This document shows, in pieces, positions 31,010-61,109 of a DNA stretch of 64,000 bases. The stretch's first letter is position 1. Every line of letters starts with the position of its first letter. Location: assembly GCF_037076555.1 (NCBI RefSeq), contig NZ_AP029023.1, positions 2,666,001 through 2,730,000 on the forward strand, read 5' to 3'. This DNA is from Methylophilus sp. DW102 (lineage in GTDB: Bacteria; Pseudomonadota; Gammaproteobacteria; Burkholderiales; Methylophilaceae). The translations under genes were made by a program, and so were the position numbers. The notes under the pieces are model-generated. The model made no database searches, had not been told where the DNA came from, and saw only the letters and a program-made list of their open reading frames with translations.

Positions 31010-31094
31010 CAGTGAAAAGTGAACGCCGTTGAGATGCTTTACAGCAAATGCTCTGAGCCTGGGAGTCGAGTGACTCTCGCAGCGTTCCTCAGAA
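31010..31094 (-). ncRNA. SAH riboswitch upstream of ahcY
   Basis: On the minus strand the leader reads CTGAGGAACGCTGCGAG, then CCCAGGCTCAG, then a short hairpin and CTCAACGGCGTTCAC. These match the conserved core of the S-adenosylhomocysteine riboswitch (GAGG-GCGCUGC, AGGCUC, and AAcGGCgcUCAC). The known class switches downstream genes on when SAH is bound. It lies about 90 bases upstream of the ahcY start, the typical position. Confidence 0.88.
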
Positions 31095-31101
31095 GTTGCG
31101 A

Positions 31102-38317: not shown

Positions 38318-38454
38318 CAGTCCATTATCTTTTAAAAAAACGAGTGTGGTCAATAGCTAAGCGCATTTTTTCAAAGTAAATTAAGAATTTGAAGCCCCTC
38401 GCAAGATACCATGCAACTGGTCAAAGTCACTGCTTTAGACTAGAATGCCGAACA

Positions 38455-38640
38455 GTTGTCAGGTGCCTGCGTCTGCGTTCTTGCAGACAAGGGTGAAACT
38501 GGGAAACAGGTGCGCGAACCTCGTTCGCAATGCCTGTGCTGCCCCCGCAACGGTAAGCAAGTGCGGGTCTATCCATATGCCACTGAGTAAAAACTTGGGA
38601 AGGCGATAGACCAAGACTTGCCAGCCCGGAGACCGGCCTT
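38455..38640 (+). ncRNA. Cobalamin riboswitch
   Basis: All hallmark blocks occur in order: CAGGTGCC at the 5' end, GGGTGAAACTGGGAAACAGG, the GCTGCCCCCGCAACGGTAA core, CCACTG, TTGGGAAGGC, and the B12 box AGCCCGGAGACCGGCC at 38623-38638, which fits the consensus completely. It lies about 150 bases upstream of a TonB-dependent receptor gene. The class normally represses uptake genes when adenosylcobalamin is plentiful. Confidence 0.96.
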
Positions 38641-38653
38641 ACAACCCAATTGC

Positions 38654-38776
38654 AATACCGCGGGGTGACGGTGTCTGATCATAATGAATGCATGGCTTGC
38701 CAACAAGCGATGCATTTATTCATTTTCTGTCGATTCCCCGGTATTGAAAGTAAACCCACATGCGGGGTCGCATGTG
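38654..38776 (+). promoter_or_regulatory. Expression platform of the cobalamin riboswitch
   Basis: Three stems lie between aptamer and start codon. AATACC-GC-GGGG (38654-38665) pairs with CCCCGGTATT (38736-38745), enclosing an interrupted hairpin AATGCAT-g-GCTTG with CAAGC-g-ATGCATT (38687-38716). Next comes a perfect CACATGCG/CGCATGTG hairpin (38757-38776) ending 16 bases before the ATG and close to the GGGATAAG ribosome site. No T-run follows, so control of translation initiation is more likely than termination. Confidence 0.6.
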
Positions 38777-54120: not shown

Positions 54121-55807
54121 CTGGCGAACTCACCTCATCGGAATGCCTGATAAGATTTAGTTACCGTTGCTTTACTTGACATAACTGTTCCGATACCCCA
54201 CCATCGGAATGCCTGATAAGATCGCTTTTGCATGTGACTGCCGCAGTTTTTTGGTTCCGATACCCCACCATCGGAATGCCTGATAAGATCTTTTCCGAAA
54301 GGCACTGTTACAGGCAATTGTTCCGATACCCCACCATCGGAATGCCTGATAAGATTGGCACATATGCCGGAACGGATATTTTTTCGTTCCGATACCCCAC
54401 CATCGGAATGCCTGATAAGATGTGGATCTCGATGACCCTGAGTCCGTTAAAGTTCCGATACCCCACCATCGGAATGCCTGATAAGATATGGTGCGCATCA
54501 TCATCCGGCAGCTGCACGTTCCGATACCCCACCATCGGAATGCCTGATAAGATCTGGAAAGTGACATATCAAGGAAAAATCTAGTTCCGATACCCCACCA
54601 TCGGAATGCCTGATAAGATGGTTTCAGCGCTCCACACGTCAGCCGCCGTGTTCCGATACCCCACCATCGGAATGCCTGATAAGATGAGGCTGGCCTCTCA
54701 TAGTAGTAAAAGTATGTTCCGATACCCCACCATCGGAATGCCTGATAAGATTCAACTTCAACAAGCTCGCGTTGAAAATACGTTCCGATACCCCACCATC
54801 GGAATGCCTGATAAGATAAATTGATATACTTGAGCGCCTGCAAATAGGTTCCGATACCCCACCATCGGAATGCCTGATAAGATGCAGTCAATCACCAGCA
54901 TCAAATACATTGAGTTCCGATACCCCACCATCGGAATGCCTGATAAGATTTAATGAAGCTTTAGGTGCATTACTGTTAAGTTCCGATACCCCACCATCGG
55001 AATGCCTGATAAGATTGCCATTGGCGTATCAGGCGCTGGTGCGATGTTCCGATACCCCACCATCGGAATGCCTGATAAGATGCCATCCAAGCAAGTGCCC
55101 GCCGAGTATTCGTTCCGATACCCCACCATCGGAATGCCTGATAAGATCAAAGACAGTGTTGCTGTATTTGAAACTAAGTTCCGATACCCCACCATCGGAA
55201 TGCCTGATAAGATTGCAATGCTGTTTACAAAACCATTGTCTAGGTTCCGATACCCCACCATCGGAATGCCTGATAAGATCTTGGGCAAAAAGAAGTGCCT
55301 GGGCCACAAGTTCCGATACCCCACCATCGGAATGCCTGATAAGATCATCTTTTGCTTTGCGCAGTAGCGACCATAGTTCCGATACCCCACCATCGGAATG
55401 CCTGATAAGATTAGACATGCCGCGCATTGTTGTGAATGTTGGTTCCGATACCCCACCATCGGAATGCCTGATAAGATCCTTCTCTCCAGTTTAATAGCGT
55501 AATCTGTGTTCCGATACCCCACCATCGGAATGCCTGATAAGATATAGCAGTAGCACAGCAAGCTAATAATGCTGTTCCGATACCCCACCATCGGAATGCC
55601 TGATAAGATTGCTTAAAACAGCATAATTTACGCGGTGAAGTTCCGATACCCCACCATCGGAATGCCTGATAAGATTGCCTGCTTGGGAATTGGGGTTAAT
55701 CATGCGTTCCGATACCCCACCATCGGAATGCCTGATAAGATAGGAACGGTCTCCACAGCACAAAACCCGCCGTTCCGATACCCCACCATCGGAATGCCTG
55801 ATAAGAT
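54121..55807 (+). CRISPR. Type II-C CRISPR array, 26 repeats and 25 spacers
   Basis: The 36-base repeat begins GTTCCGATACC and ends CCTGATAAGAT. There are 25 apparently identical copies, the first at 54187, the second at 54254, then every 66 bases to 55772. One degenerate copy (54121-54156) keeps the last 21 bases exactly while its first 15 are mostly changed. Spacers are 30 bases, except the second (54223-54253, 31). The repeat has an internal dyad TTCCGAT/ATCGGAA. Its last nine bases, TGATAAGAT, fit an extended -10 (TGn plus TAAGAT). The strand is set by the tracrRNA anti-repeat. There is no leader on the left: mocR ends at 54117. Confidence 0.99.
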
Positions 55808-55847: not shown

Positions 55848-56156
55848 TTAAAAAAGCTCAACTTGCTCAGGCATGTTGGGCTTTTTTCTTGTCGGCTTGG
55901 TCCCAAAAAACTCTTTGGTCATGCCATATTGTTTGTCCGTGACAATAAAAAATGCGACTTGTGCATCTTTTGGGATAAGCGGACGTAGCCTAACGATGGT
56001 CGCTTCTCCCACCGCAAGTGTTGGAAAGTGATGCACGTACAGTGAGTTTTGCAGTTGAACAAAATTTTCTTGTAACAAGCAGCGCCTAAACACACTGTAA
56101 TCATGCCGCCCTTCTTTTTCGGTCATTGGGCAATCATATACACAAATTACCCACAT
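55848..56156 (-). CDS. cas2: CRISPR integration protein Cas2
   Basis: About 102 residues of type II Cas2 (VICVYDCPMTEKEGRHDYSV, FRRCLLQENFVQLQNSLYV, HHFPTL). It scaffolds the Cas1-Cas2 integrase. The start was placed at 56156 (MWVICVYD), 14 bases after the cas1 stop with GGGTGG nearby; an ATG at 56180 would overlap cas1 but lacks a ribosome site. Its last codons double as a terminator hairpin. It lies 40 bases from the nearest repeat. Confidence 0.93.
   Translation of the reverse strand: MWVICVYDCPMTEKEGRHDYSVFRRCLLQENFVQLQNSLYVHHFPTLAVGEATIVRLRPLIPKDAQVAFFIVTDKQYGMTKEFFGTKPTRKKPNMPEQVELF
55850..55887. terminator. Bidirectional terminator embedded in the end of cas2
   Basis: AAAAAAGCTCAAC (55850-55862) pairs with GTTGGGCTTTTTT (55875-55887), with one G-T wobble and a 12-base loop, giving T-runs on both strands. 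On the minus strand its last part encodes the final cas2 residues and stop. It can end the rightward array transcript 43 bases after the last repeat and the leftward cas operon. Confidence 0.75.
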
Positions 56157-56170
56157 AACTCGCCACCCAT

Positions 56171-57088
56171 TTACGCCCATGTTTCGTCGTCAGTTTCCGT
56201 AACTAAATCTTCTGGCAAACTCAGTTGCTTTCCCCTCCCATCTAATACGCGTACAAAGCTGGCAATAGTCTCGTTAATTGCAGATGGCAATCGATAACCC
56301 GCACCATTGAACTTTACTTCTTGCATAACAAACCCCAAGATTTCTTTACGCGCTTGGCTATTAAATTCACCCGCATTGTTTAGGTAAACGTAACGCTCCA
56401 CCACAAAACGGTATGGCTCAATAAAGTCATCAGCCAAGTTAAAGGGGTTTTCCATACTGCAATGCCCTAAACCTAGTGAGGGGTTTAAGCCAGCCATTAC
56501 CAAGCTGCGCGCTATCATAGATCGCAAGACTGCATAACCAAAATTTAGGCGAGCATTTACAGCATCATCTGCACCCTGTTTCTCACGAGAGAAATTTTCG
56601 TCAAATAAATGCGCCCAGTAATGCTTTGCGCCTTGTCCCTCACATTTTGTTTTGTCGGCAGGTTGAACCTCTTGCGCCAGACGTTCTAATCTTAATGCGC
56701 CTTTGCGGTTCAAAAAACGTAAATTAATGGCTTGCGTACTAAGTCTTGCTTTTACCAACGCTTGCCAAAGCTTTGCTTTACTTTCGGTGCCATCTAACAC
56801 CATTTGTTGACGCAAGCGTCGGACTAAATCGCCATTGCCAACTTGTGGTAAAAACCATGCGCATGGATGGTGAGCTTCGTCAGTCACCATCACGCTTGCT
56901 CCTGCTTCCGCAAGACCACGTAATGCCTGCACAGAAATTTGAATAGTGTGATGATGTAAACACAGCACAGCAATGTCTTTTGGTAAGACATGGTGATCAT
57001 CAAACCCGTCACGCCTAATTCGCAACCTGCCTAAATCAACTGAAATTGAGGCAGGATTTTCAATTAGCAAAATACGGTGCTCAGACAA
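56171..57088 (-). CDS. cas1: CRISPR integrase Cas1
   Basis: 305 residues of the type II Cas1 group. Metal ligands are recognisable: Glu150 in CEGQGAKHYW, His209 in LGLGHCSMENP, and Asp220/Glu224 in NLADDFIEPYR, so the integrase should be active. It begins with TTG at 57088, two bases after the cas9 stop, with AAGGAT upstream. No csn2 or cas4 accompanies it, which defines subtype II-C. Confidence 0.97.
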   Translation of the reverse strand: MSEHRILLIENPASISVDLGRLRIRRDGFDDHHVLPKDIAVLCLHHHTIQISVQALRGLAEAGASVMVTDEAHHPCAWFLPQVGNGDLVRRLRQQMVLDGTESKAKLWQALVKARLSTQAINLRFLNRKGALRLERLAQEVQPADKTKCEGQGAKHYWAHLFDENFSREKQGADDAVNARLNFGYAVLRSMIARSLVMAGLNPSLGLGHCSMENPFNLADDFIEPYRFVVERYVYLNNAGEFNSQARKEILGFVMQEVKFNGAGYRLPSAINETIASFVRVLDGRGKQLSLPEDLVTETDDETWA

Positions 57089-57090
57089 AA

Positions 57091-60000
57091 CTAGTCTATC
57101 CTTTTTAAGCGAAGCACTTGAGTAAAAGAAACTTTTTTCTTACCAGAACCTGGCTCTTTGATTGCATCAAATGCACGTGGGTCAACTATGGGTATTAAGA
57201 ATAAATTTCCTTCAATTGTGAAATATCCTATACGGTATTTTTTACCAACTTTGCTATCTAACACCGTATCATTTTTATGTAGTCGCACCATATTTTCCGC
57301 TAGCGGCTGATGTTTACATTTCATAGCCTGATGCGTATTTACTAAAGTTTGCTTGCCTATGCGACCATCAAATATTTCCGTTTCAAGATAGGCATATCCT
57401 GCATTTGGCAGACGCTTAGAATGTTCACGCCCATCTTTACTTGTGTGGGCAATAATCGCGACATCATCTGCATAATTGCCTGTAAAGCATTTTACTTTTT
57501 TGATTTCTACTCGCTGCCCATATAAGGTTTGGTAAAAAGGCATAGCTAAAGCTTCTGGAGCAGTTTTTCCCGAGGCTACTCTCGCATCAAATGCTTTTAG
57601 AATAATCTCTTTAACTGTTGAGCTGACAATATTTTCAATTGCTTTGTGTGCTTGCTCTATAGTACCTTTTCTACGGTCAATTAAATCTGCAACCTTTATG
57701 CGCAATGTGAGCCTTGCTTTATCTTCGTTAGATTTAACCGCAGCGCCATAAGCTGTCTCTTGAAAAATTGCACCATCTGGATAACGATCTGGTTTAATCG
57801 AAATTGGACATTCACGCACAGCAGCCAATGCAATTTCCCGTATGTTTTTTATAGGTGGTTCAGCTACCTCCAACTTTGGTTTATAACCTCTCATCTCACG
57901 CTCAGAATCCAACTTGTATTGCCGCGCCATTTGTTGAAACAAACCACGCGAAGTGAGGCCGATTGTCATAGCGTCAATCAAATGATGTCTATGGTCTATA
58001 CGCTTGTTAAGCTTGCGGTCCGTATGGCGCGCTTTATCTATATGTCCATGTGCATCTAAAACCTTATGCCCCTCCCACACATCTCGATATTTCTCAAAAT
58101 CTTCAACGCTGACCACTTGCATTTCTTCATCTAAAACCGGTAAGCCTTCCTCAGTTCGTGCTTGTGGAATAACTGTTTCCAGCTTCCATTTGCGTCGTAA
58201 CATTGCAGTGAGTTCTCCGCGAGAAACGGAAACCGGGGTTTTGCAGATGCCTTGCAACCATTGCGCGGCCTCTTTGGCAATCCAAGATGTTTGTTGAAAT
58301 TGACGATCAGCAAACTCTGCAATCGACTCATCCGTGAGCACTTCAGACTCAAAGTCTTCCAACAGCAATAATTTGGACTTGCGATATTGTTTGTTATCTG
58401 AAAAGTACTTTGCCCGCACCTTGATGACTTGCCAACGCTCCGCATCATGCCCCCATGCTTGAGCAGGTGTTTTATTGCCTTTCTCCTGATTACAACTGCG
58501 GTGAGCCAATACAATTTCGCTTCGTTTTAAACCAACCTGTGTAAGCGATTTTGGCAAAATATGTTCGTATTCTGTTTCAGCACCACTCAGCGCGTCGCCC
58601 AAGCTGATTGGTTTTGTGCAATAAGGGCAATGGCCTTTGCCTTGCTCTACCCATAGCAAATAGCGGCGAATACGTGATGGCGTAACCGTAACGCCATGCT
58701 CACGGATTTCTGCTTCTGCATCTAGACGAGCTTTACGATTTTTATTGTTTTCACTTTCACGCTCATTACGTTTGCTGATTCCCACGCTCATTTCCCGGGA
58801 CATTTCCACAACGATTTGCTCTGGCTGAGTCCCCAAATCTACCATCATACGATTAAGCACATAGCGCATTTGCCTTAACGAACCATCAACGACAGCATTA
58901 CCTGTACTAGGCGCAAAATCCAAACTATCTTTTAGTGCTATTGGTTTGTTAAAGCTTTCAGGGTAACAGACACGTATCGCAGCATCTTCATCAGGTCGCA
59001 TTTCGCCTTGCCATTCATTAGGCCACCATGGTGAATCCAACCACGCTGTAAGTTTATTTAGCGCTTTAATTGAGTATGAGGCGCGGCCACTTTCAAAGCC
59101 CATTTTGCTAAGCCGGTCAAATTTGTCATGGCTTTTTAACAAATTGATAAACTCCACAAGCTTCTCCGGCAATTTGCGCATAGTGCCATCAGCTTTTGCA
59201 AAGCGTGTGTACCACAGCGGATCATCAAGTTGCTCAGGTGAACCTAAATCCGCTAAAAAGTTAATGACTTGTATTTGAGTGCGCGCATCTAATGCCAACC
59301 ATGCATCACCTAATTCTAACTTGCGAAATATATGGTTGGTTTTGTTACCAGGGATTTCATCGCGACTCAATCTATCTAAATTCAGACCTTTAGTGTCAGG
59401 CCTTGGGCAACCAGCAACATCCAGTGCTTTATAAATGGCATCAAACTTCACCACTTCTTTTTCATCGCACAATTGGCGAATAACTACCTTTTGTGCTGCG
59501 GATAGTTTTTCTGCTCGTTTACCCACACCCCAGCGTAAATCAGCCAGTGTTTTTTCAATTCGAAAATGCTGAAAAGCGAGTTGAGCGCGAGGTGCTCTTG
59601 CAAGTGTAGGTTCTAAGCTACATTGCCCAACCATACCGCCTACCGCTTTTAATGGGCGCTGGTGAAAAATGGCATTATAAAAAATATCCTTAAGCGGCTT
59701 GCCTTCATGCTTGGAATTAAGGACTGGATAAAAGGCAGATTGTGTTTGCCAAATTTGTTCAAACTCAGCCACCAACTGGCTTCTCAGCGCATACAAATTT
59801 TTGCCTTCAGTGGTTTTATCTTCAGGCTCTTTTATTTTGAGTTTGGTTGGTTTGCCATCTAGCCATCGCTGATATAAAAACTCACCAAGCGTCACCTCAT
59901 CAAAACCTTTGCTTTGCGCCAGAGCTTGCATTTCAGTCTTAAGGTCATGGTTGCCGCCTTCAACCTCCCCAAGCTTTGCACCTTCCTTTTTTGGGCGAAA

Positions 60001-60390
60001 CTCACCTCCGTAACCACGCCGTTTGCCTATACGAATAAATACACGGATTAAGTTGGATAAATCTATTTTCTCTCTGGCCGCCTTAGCACGAATTTCTAAT
60101 AAAGTACGTCCGCTATCAATGGACGGCCCTAACTGGATGTAAAGCAAGGATGCCAATGCAGCAATCGCTTTGGTTCTTCCTAAACGTCTATCGATTTGGC
60201 GACGTTGCATGCGTGCAGCACGACGCCCCGCTTTTTTAGACTTAAGTCCTGACTGACTTTTTTCTAAAGGCTCATCGAAAATACGAACATGCTTCCAAAC
60301 TAGTTCGAGCGGATTATTGTTTTCATCGAGTGAAAACGCCGCCACACCAAGTGAAGCGGTCCCTACGTCCAAACCAACTCTGTATCGCAT
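57091..60390 (-). CDS. cas9: Type II-C Cas9 nuclease
   Basis: 1099 residues, in the compact II-C size range. Numbering from the ATG at 60390: RuvC-I Asp8 (RVGLDVGTASLG), Arg-rich bridge helix about 49-73 (KKAGRRAARMQRRQIDRRLG), REC lobe about 80-495, RuvC-II Glu529 (IVVEMSREM), HNH about 580-655 with CPYC (Cys588, Cys591), catalytic His610 in EYEHILPKS, and Asn634; RuvC-III His803 and Asp806 (HRHHLIDAM); C-terminal PAM-interacting region. All nuclease residues are present. Position 609 is Glu where most Cas9 have Asp. The ATG at 60390 is preceded by AAAGGGGG; a TTG seven codons upstream is possible. Confidence 0.97.
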   Translation of the reverse strand: MRYRVGLDVGTASLGVAAFSLDENNNPLELVWKHVRIFDEPLEKSQSGLKSKKAGRRAARMQRRQIDRRLGRTKAIAALASLLYIQLGPSIDSGRTLLEIRAKAAREKIDLSNLIRVFIRIGKRRGYGGEFRPKKEGAKLGEVEGGNHDLKTEMQALAQSKGFDEVTLGEFLYQRWLDGKPTKLKIKEPEDKTTEGKNLYALRSQLVAEFEQIWQTQSAFYPVLNSKHEGKPLKDIFYNAIFHQRPLKAVGGMVGQCSLEPTLARAPRAQLAFQHFRIEKTLADLRWGVGKRAEKLSAAQKVVIRQLCDEKEVVKFDAIYKALDVAGCPRPDTKGLNLDRLSRDEIPGNKTNHIFRKLELGDAWLALDARTQIQVINFLADLGSPEQLDDPLWYTRFAKADGTMRKLPEKLVEFINLLKSHDKFDRLSKMGFESGRASYSIKALNKLTAWLDSPWWPNEWQGEMRPDEDAAIRVCYPESFNKPIALKDSLDFAPSTGNAVVDGSLRQMRYVLNRMMVDLGTQPEQIVVEMSREMSVGISKRNERESENNKNRKARLDAEAEIREHGVTVTPSRIRRYLLWVEQGKGHCPYCTKPISLGDALSGAETEYEHILPKSLTQVGLKRSEIVLAHRSCNQEKGNKTPAQAWGHDAERWQVIKVRAKYFSDNKQYRKSKLLLLEDFESEVLTDESIAEFADRQFQQTSWIAKEAAQWLQGICKTPVSVSRGELTAMLRRKWKLETVIPQARTEEGLPVLDEEMQVVSVEDFEKYRDVWEGHKVLDAHGHIDKARHTDRKLNKRIDHRHHLIDAMTIGLTSRGLFQQMARQYKLDSEREMRGYKPKLEVAEPPIKNIREIALAAVRECPISIKPDRYPDGAIFQETAYGAAVKSNEDKARLTLRIKVADLIDRRKGTIEQAHKAIENIVSSTVKEIILKAFDARVASGKTAPEALAMPFYQTLYGQRVEIKKVKCFTGNYADDVAIIAHTSKDGREHSKRLPNAGYAYLETEIFDGRIGKQTLVNTHQAMKCKHQPLAENMVRLHKNDTVLDSKVGKKYRIGYFTIEGNLFLIPIVDPRAFDAIKEPGSGKKKVSFTQVLRLKRID

Positions 60391-60418
60391 GACACCCCCT
60401 TTTATTTGCAACTTGTTG

Positions 60419-60436
60419 TATTATGCAAATATATCA
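60419..60436. promoter_or_regulatory. Divergent -10 elements for cas9 and tracrRNA
   Basis: On the minus strand TGATATATT (60436-60428) is an extended -10 (TGn plus TATATT, five of six consensus bases) about 38 bases upstream of the cas9 ATG. It occupies the place of the repeat-end element within the anti-repeat. On the plus strand TATTAT (60419-60424) lies seven bases before the presumed tracrRNA start. No convincing -35 is seen on either strand. Confidence 0.55.
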
Positions 60437-60522
60437 GGTATTCCGATGGTGGGGACTATCGGTAACAAGGGTTTAAAAACCCACCGATATAAGGGGCGAA
60501 CTTAGGTTCGCCCTTTTCTTTT
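60431..60522 (+). ncRNA. tracrRNA
   Basis: The anti-repeat (60431-60468) is the reverse complement of the repeat over almost its whole length: TATCAGG, one T that gives a G-U pair, ATTCCGATGGTGGGG, a two-base AC bulge, TATCGG, a bulged T, and AAC. It is followed by a small hairpin (GGGTTT/AACCC), a linker, and a terminator GGGCGAAC/GTTCGCCC (60494-60513) with TTTTCTTTT. About 92 bases, plus strand, divergent from cas9 with a start about 40 bases from its ATG. It should pair with crRNA for RNase III processing and Cas9 loading. Confidence 0.93.
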
Positions 60523-60527
60523 CGTGA

Positions 60528-61109
60528 TTACCGATTCACAAACTCAACCTTGGGAATCACTCCTGACAAATCCAGCCGTGTAAGGCTGGCGTAATCGATA
60601 TGCAACCGGAACAAGCCTTTGAGTTGCATATTCAGCACATGCGCAATCAGCGCGCGTATCATGCCGCCGTGGGTGACTACCAGCACATGTTCACCGGCAT
60701 GGCGGGCTTGTATCTCTTGCAAAAAGTCCACACCGCGCGCCTGTAACTGGGCAAAGGTTTCGCCTTGTGGCGGCGAAAGTTCGGCATAGTTTTTGGCCCA
60801 GACATCAAATCGCTCACGCGGAATATCGTTCCAAGCCTGCATCTCCCATTCGCCAAAGTGCAGTTCCTTGAGGCGCACATCGGCCTGAATGTCTCCGGCA
60901 TGCCCCAGGCCGTGGGCCAGACCCAGTGCGAGTTTGTGGCAGCGCTGCAAAGGGCTGGTATAGAGGGCGTGGAAAGCATCGGCTTGCAGCTTTTGCTGCA
61001 CGCTGGCCAACTCGTGATGAAAGTTGGCCGAGACATCGACATCGCTTTGTCCGTAACAGATGCCTTCAGCGATTTGTAAACTGGTGTGTCTCACCAACGT
61101 CAATTTCAT
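60528..61109 (-). CDS. cobC: Alpha-ribazole-5'-phosphate phosphatase CobC
   Basis: 193-residue histidine phosphatase that removes the 5'-phosphate of alpha-ribazole (or of adenosylcobalamin phosphate). Phosphoacceptor motif LTLVRHTSL, then YTSPLQRC, the acid region LKELHFGEWE, and second His in VVTHGGMIRAL. ATGA overlap with cobS. No terminator is seen between it and cas9, 138 bases downstream on the same strand. Confidence 0.92.
   Translation of the reverse strand: MKLTLVRHTSLQIAEGICYGQSDVDVSANFHHELASVQQKLQADAFHALYTSPLQRCHKLALGLAHGLGHAGDIQADVRLKELHFGEWEMQAWNDIPRERFDVWAKNYAELSPPQGETFAQLQARGVDFLQEIQARHAGEHVLVVTHGGMIRALIAHVLNMQLKGLFRLHIDYASLTRLDLSGVIPKVEFVNR

Follow-up and report, generated by a model that had tools for sequence, protein, structure and literature searches.

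A tracrRNA anti-repeat as a candidate cas9 promoter in a minimal type II-C CRISPR-Cas locus of Methylophilus

Introduction

Can a single short sequence encode the part of a tracrRNA that pairs with the CRISPR repeat and, read on its other strand, start the transcription of cas9? This question is raised by the CRISPR-Cas locus of Methylophilus sp. DW102, which we analyzed within a stretch of 64,000 nucleotides (the window; positions 2,666,001-2,730,000 of a single-contig genome of 3.0 Mb). A first-pass annotation of this DNA had proposed that the anti-repeat doubles as the cas9 promoter. The main fact that deflates this proposal, absent from that annotation, is that repeats of the II-C type are promoters themselves. 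In Campylobacter jejuni, repeat-embedded promoters are established by experiment, each repeat ending in an extended -10-like sequence and crRNAs starting at spacer position 5 (PMC3656092), and a promoter in every repeat is stated for II-C systems generally (PMC12080349). Because an anti-repeat is the complement of a promoter-bearing II-C repeat, its other strand inherits most of the motif. What in the anti-repeat, then, goes beyond this inheritance, and does it point to cas9?

Results

The locus is a minimal type II-C CRISPR-Cas system. Its cas gene content is cas9, cas1 and cas2 only (four proteins around the locus were scanned), all on the minus strand: cas9 (57091-60390) encodes a protein of 1099 aa with RuvC and HNH (domains Cas9_a, RuvC_III and HNH_4), and behind it lie cas1 (56171-57085, with a provisional start codon) and cas2 (55848-56180). 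The cas9 ATG is at 60390-60388, and the likely ribosome-binding site, GGGGG, is at 60395-60399 on the same strand. The array (54121-55807, plus strand) is oriented against the cas operon, and near cas9 there is a predicted tracrRNA gene that contains an anti-repeat; both features, read here from the sequence, are those of II-C systems (array direction: PMC3936727). An upstream ORF of the histidine-phosphatase family, called cobC in the first-pass annotation, is co-directional with cas9 and ends 138 nt before it.

At its 3' end each repeat of the array carries TGATAAGAT, and other II-C systems likewise have an extended -10 there. There are 25 intact 36-nt repeats, GTTCCGATACCCCACCATCGGAATGCCTGATAAGAT, at 54187-55807 on the plus strand, and one more, degenerate and oldest, at 54121-54156. 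This oldest repeat is 27/36 identical overall; the degeneration affects the 5' part, whereas the final 21 nt, with TGATAAGAT among them, are unchanged. This agrees with the decay that the first repeat undergoes in II-C arrays (PMC12080349), and the promoter of this repeat could still act on the first spacer. Elsewhere in the window, a cobalamin riboswitch (38444-38655, plus strand) and an S-adenosylhomocysteine riboswitch (31014-31096, minus strand) score above the Rfam gathering thresholds.

The predicted tracrRNA occupies 60431-60521 on the plus strand, with both start and end placed by prediction, and folds at -38.8 kcal/mol (z -5.7). The last base of its -10, TATTAT (60419-60424), is 7 nt upstream of the predicted start, which falls on a T/A step at -1/+1, and an intrinsic terminator (60491-60516) follows the anti-repeat and the stem-loops. 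The anti-repeat itself (approximately 60428-60468, plus strand) pairs with the repeat except for a 2-nt bulge and a 1-nt offset, both near the 5' end of the repeat, and the last bases. Read on the minus strand it is, as had been claimed, a degenerate repeat pointing at cas9. This strand ends in TGATATATT, an extended -10-like element of TGA plus TATATT (60428-60436), with TG at 60436-60435 and the hexamer at 60433-60428. The element does lie shortly before the cas9 ATG, with 37 nt between hexamer and ATG rather than the roughly 38 first given. From -10 geometry and the analogy with C. jejuni, cas9 transcription is predicted to start in a zone 5-7 nt after the hexamer, at 60421-60423 on the minus strand.

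How strong is this element when the window is taken by itself? The hexamer of the anti-repeat matches TATAAT at 5/6 positions and that of the repeat, TAAGAT, at 4/6, so the claim that the anti-repeat stands nearer to consensus than its own repeat is borne out for this system; that it has changed in this direction is not clear, since the repeats of the two nearest relatives, whose anti-repeat hexamer is also TATATT, already end in TAAAAT (5/6), and the G of the repeat in the window may be the newer change. The sequence TGNTATATT occurs 3 times in the window against 1.29 expected by shuffling (at least 3 in 20 of 100 shuffles), and TGNTANNNT occurs 82 times against 93.6 expected, with no enrichment. 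Thus TGNTATATT alone is not rare: only its placement matters, and the motif by itself proves nothing. With TGNTA fixed by pairing, a random filling at least as good as TATATT has a probability of 0.059 at the composition of the UTR in this locus. The score of the anti-repeat site gains nothing from a -35, and a sigma-70 scan with both hexamers over 60300-60620 found no promoter (0.3 expected). A second hexamer, CATAAT, lies 8 nt downstream of that of the anti-repeat and scores 5.5 against 8.4. The case for an anti-repeat promoter from the window by itself is suggestive and no more.

We therefore turned to related loci. At E 1e-30, Cas9 matches came from 7 of the 187 family genomes and from 9 of the 399 at order level; at E 1e-60, they came from 4 of 369 genomes in the class and 3 of 398 in the phylum, each of these counts including the DW102 genome. 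There was no match at E 1e-30 in the same-species genome or in 19 same-genus genomes among those listed, a pattern suggesting that the locus was gained recently or is frequently lost. Searches in the families of seven relatives gave 1/100, 1/22, 2/74, 1/3, 1/74, 1/20 and 3/175, with two new relatives from the G824 family and none from the families of G440, G534, G1064, G769, G551 and G643; scanning genome contigs yielded 12 loci, of which 2 are close. Plasmids held no relative of the DW102 Cas9 at E 1e-60, and viral contigs held neither a Cas9 relative nor the anti-repeat pattern. The DNA of the tracr region matched 3 plasmids, in the terminator part only. Plasmid matches to the Cas9 of a relative numbered 4, and those to the Cas9 type of L043 numbered 50, all below 60% identity; four of the latter (L052-L055) were examined, of which L052 and L055 were readable (in L055 the cas9 annotation is split in two), and our array search found none in L053 or L054.

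The comparison set consists of 14 loci, that of DW102 included, in which the anti-repeat is divergent from and directly upstream of cas9. The aligned Cas9s are 41-86% identical to the query. L038 is outside this count and was added as a 15th anti-repeat and as the 12th anti-repeat/repeat pair. The set does not include L042 (contig beginning inside cas9), L018 (cas9 end only), the other II-C clade (L043-L045, L052-L055), or L003-L012 (distant or partial, with L003, L004 and L005 alone inspected; the routine found no array in L003 or L004). L039 (broken cas9) and L040 (contig end) were kept and were dropped in some shuffle settings; duplicate contigs were counted once. In L039 (G643 contig C8), cas9 matches in three pieces with one in-frame TGA, and the tracrRNA gene looks preserved although only one repeat was found nearby. 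Scores come from an E. coli sigma-70 weight matrix, and the loci are related, which makes the P values below optimistic; they are to be taken as guides.

The inheritance of the motif is evident in these loci. The repeat consensus ends in TGNTAnnnT, with TG and the last T present, in 12/12 systems for which both sequences are available, and pairing between anti-repeat and repeat holds in 11-12 of 12 at TGNTA. A general trend by which the anti-repeat improves on the repeat was considered and rejected: by score, among these 12 systems, of which DW102 is one, the anti-repeat hexamer is better than that of its own repeat in 3 and worse in 9 (in two by 0.2 only); counting matches to TATAAT instead, 3 anti-repeats do better, 4 equal their repeat and 5 do worse.

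The nine-base ends of the anti-repeats are TGATATATT in DW102, L047 and L001, TGATACACT in L034, TGATACGAT in L032 and L050, TAATACGCT in L033, TGATACGAA in L035, TGATACGGT in L037, TGATACATT in L036, TGCTACATT in L041, TGATACAGG in L039, TGATACAAG in L040 and TAATACGAT in L051. TG is kept in 12/14, the last T (-7) in 11/14 and both in 9/14, DW102 among them (10/15 with L038), and the element is eroded in 5/14. The bases of a -10 that matter most are the T at -7 and the A at -11. Pairing with the repeat falls to 5/12, 5/12 and 1/12 at hexamer bases 3, 4 and 5 and returns to 10/12 at base 6; since it collapses at bases 3-5, pairing does not account well for the last T. This T, found in 11/14 loci against 3.7 expected (TGNTA fixed, the rest shuffled), persists in 7 of 8 well-separated loci against 2.1-2.2 expected (P 0.0007-0.0017). 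On the Cas9 tree it changes 3 times, while each remaining column from 4 to 18 changes 4-7 times. In the window it is at 60428, outside the predicted tracrRNA.

According to the first-pass annotation, related loci should conserve TGn and the hexamer more strongly than pairing alone demands. This holds for the last T, with the fewest changes of columns 4-18, and fails for TG and for hexamer bases 3-5. The annotation had also named loss of the element beside an active cas9 as evidence against its proposal, and losses beside an open cas9 do occur. L035, with an open cas9 whose product is 57-58% identical, lacks the last T (TGATACGAA); L033 and L051, with open full-length cas9, have lost TG by a change that keeps a G.U pair, indicating that the conservation of TG is not separate from pairing. 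Reading the sister II-C clade by eye (L043, L044, L045, L052, L055), we find that the anti-repeat ends without the -10 of the repeat and the cas9 start is farther off. In L005, a more distant system, both anti-repeat and repeat end in TGATATGCT. The anti-repeat of L038 is divergent, lies approximately 360 nt from cas9 and still ends in TGATACGTT: the last T is kept there without abutting cas9, so either its link to cas9 is weaker or the leader is long at that locus. Between the anti-repeat and cas9 of L038 (G769 contig C10) is a 55-codon membrane-like ORF, starting MKISYESCGNK, with its end about 16 nt upstream of the cas9 ATG.

The last T is matched by an excess in rank. In a scan that began 30 nt ahead of the hexamer and stopped 22 nt short of the ATG, no -10 of the cas9 strand scored above the anti-repeat site in 10/14 loci, against 3.6 expected with TGNTA fixed (P 0.001; 0.0003 at both settings of a second shuffle test), and it was likewise the best in 5 of 8 well-separated loci against 1.9 or 1.7 expected (P 0.02 or 0.006). 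It is surpassed near cas9 in L033, L035, L037 and L039; in the first two of these a hexamer a few nucleotides downstream gives the impression that the promoter has slipped. Over the full 400 nt upstream it is the top -10 in 7/14, with a higher-scoring site in the other seven: L001 (by 0.1), L034, L032, L033, L035, L037 and L039.

Such competing sites bear on the alternative that survives best: that the anti-repeat is promoter-like merely as the complement of a promoter repeat, and that cas9 starts elsewhere, from a -10 lying 5-8 nt downstream or from upstream of the tracrRNA gene. The paired TGNTA by itself gives a high -10 score, and hexamers outscoring that of the anti-repeat are found 5 nt downstream in L033 (TATTAT) and 7 nt downstream in L035 (TATATT); the CATAAT of the DW102 locus, 8 nt downstream, is a further candidate, and higher-scoring sites 120-145 nt upstream of the hexamer exist in L032, L035 and L039. 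An inherited motif does not predict that the last T should persist where bases 3-5 are unpaired, nor that first ranks should exceed those of shuffles in which TGNTA is fixed, and we consider this alternative rather unlikely. The distance from hexamer to ATG, 32-39 nt in 11/14 loci, was set aside as proof of a promoter: the tracrRNA promoter needs that space.

The tracrRNA promoter provides a second standard of comparison. The best-placed -10 on its strand has A at base 2 and T at the last base in 14/14 loci, and a pyrimidine/purine step follows it at 7-9 nt in 14/14; it ranks first on its strand in 13/14 and second in the DW102 locus (3.5 first ranks expected; 0 of 2000 shuffles reach 13). The tracrRNA -10 is thus better conserved than the -10 of the anti-repeat on the cas9 strand. 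Hexamer bases 3 and 4 of the latter show the tracrRNA start pattern in 14/14 each, and since they are the complement of that start, their pattern is explained by it and not by a cas9 -10.

Could the last T likewise belong to the tracrRNA promoter, or be (as A on the tracrRNA strand) the first base of the transcript? It lies 3 nt upstream of the predicted tracrRNA +1, close enough to raise this possibility, which is a special case of the inherited-motif alternative and overlaps with it in its odds. We judge it quite unlikely: the pyrimidine/purine step at -1/+1 falls on bases 4 and 3 in 14/14 loci, at 7-9 nt from the tracrRNA -10, and a start at base 6 would be just 4-6 nt from that -10. Weakest, and improbable, is the view that most cas9 transcription comes from the upstream gene by read-through across the tracrRNA gene, with no part for the anti-repeat: that ORF is co-directional in the window and on the cas9 strand the tracrRNA terminator lacks a clear run of T, but upstream ORFs vary among loci, the sole listed upstream ORF of at least 100 aa in L047 is divergent, so that read-through from it cannot supply cas9 and a promoter should lie between, and a read-through RNA would carry a near-perfect complement of the anti-repeat, presumably exposed to RNase III.

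The sequence of the anti-repeat element, its placement and its conservation pattern are direct results of this analysis. Judged from them, it is moderately likely (probability about 0.55) that the anti-repeat drives cas9 transcription. The original proposal that it doubles as the cas9 promoter is thus weakened by the inheritance of most of the motif through complementarity and sustained by the last T, which is kept without being needed for pairing.

Discussion

We have described above an element in which one strand begins a guide RNA and the other may begin cas9. From its sequence we infer both start sites, the use of the anti-repeat -10 by RNA polymerase, and the effect that such use would have on the ratio of Cas9 to tracrRNA. 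In the mechanism that we propose, tracrRNA and cas9 would be transcribed divergently from one short shared promoter. The anti-repeat is an inverted, degenerate copy of the repeat, and its cas9 strand would retain the repeat promoter, now aimed at cas9. RNA polymerase probably uses TGA-TATATT, starting cas9 mRNA within the predicted zone, and on the other strand TATTAT would start tracrRNA near 60431. By a 7-nt rule applied to both -10s, the predicted starts are 60421 (minus strand) and 60431 (plus strand), 10 bp apart.

This geometry has precedent: common spacings between the starts of bacterial bidirectional promoters are 18, 10 and 23 bp (PMC12825309). We propose that the polymerase footprints overlap and that, as a consequence, a single direction would be open at any moment. 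In five E. coli bidirectional promoters, basal activity was too low for interference, which appeared once one direction was strong (PMC12825309), and in C. jejuni NCTC11168 tracrRNA is the most abundant small RNA (PMC3656092). We would expect tracrRNA to be the strong direction here and cas9 the weak one; strong firing of tracrRNA would then hold cas9 down by occupying the shared DNA. A possible coupling of dose, as first suggested for this locus, would fit the predicted 10-bp geometry; the model predicts opposition of tracrRNA and cas9, not parallel dosing. The fuller proposition, that the anti-repeat is under selection in two roles, that its two starts may be mutually exclusive, and that tracrRNA firing may set the guide-to-Cas9 ratio without a regulator, is offered tentatively, and we give it less credence than the promoter itself.

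On this fuller view, cas9 would take the place that a "spacer" has behind a repeat promoter, the repeat here standing by itself. If the preferred reading of the anti-repeat as cas9 promoter is true, three constraints act on one sequence, namely repeat pairing, the tracrRNA start and the cas9 start. Such an arrangement would help to explain why the tracrRNA gene and cas9 are placed head to head, and would offer, with no regulator needed, a simple means of keeping tracrRNA more abundant than Cas9. The origin of tracrRNA genes is touched as well: they could have arisen from a promoter-bearing repeat located beside cas9.

Among the literature matches listed (titles and abstract openings, subscription papers being outside the scope), there was no description of an anti-repeat as a cas9 promoter, nor is one given in the available parts of PMC10281378, PMC9067536, PMC3936727, PMC6199352 and PMC13431127. 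In the accessible literature we found no mapped cas9 start for any II-C system; for meningococcal cas9, -10 and -35 boxes are marked in a figure of PMC13431127, according to its legend.

It is instructive to compare the proposed element with known systems. The closest are the repeat promoters of the II-C arrays of C. jejuni and Neisseria meningitidis, in which the repeat likewise has an extended -10 at its 3' end and a transcript starts a few nucleotides downstream (PMC3656092). In contrast to these, the repeat-like sequence in DW102 is an inverted anti-repeat within the tracrRNA gene, and cas9 lies downstream of it instead of a spacer. The scaRNA of Francisella novicida and N. meningitidis (PMC13431127, PMC6199352) also involves a repeat-like segment outside the array. 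That segment is contained in the scaRNA transcript, whereas here the predicted cas9 start is downstream of the anti-repeat, which would thus not be transcribed in the cas9 direction. The type II-A tracr-L (PMC11417352) likewise links tracrRNA and cas expression within one locus: there Cas9 binds the cas promoter using tracrRNA, while the link proposed here is shared promoter DNA. Finally, the DW102 element resembles bacterial bidirectional promoters (PMC12825309) in its adjacent -10s, its predicted starts 10 bp apart and, as proposed, its overlapping footprints. It differs from them in that it is predicted from sequence and that one of its -10s is at the same time the 5' end of a guide-RNA gene, constrained by pairing with the repeat.
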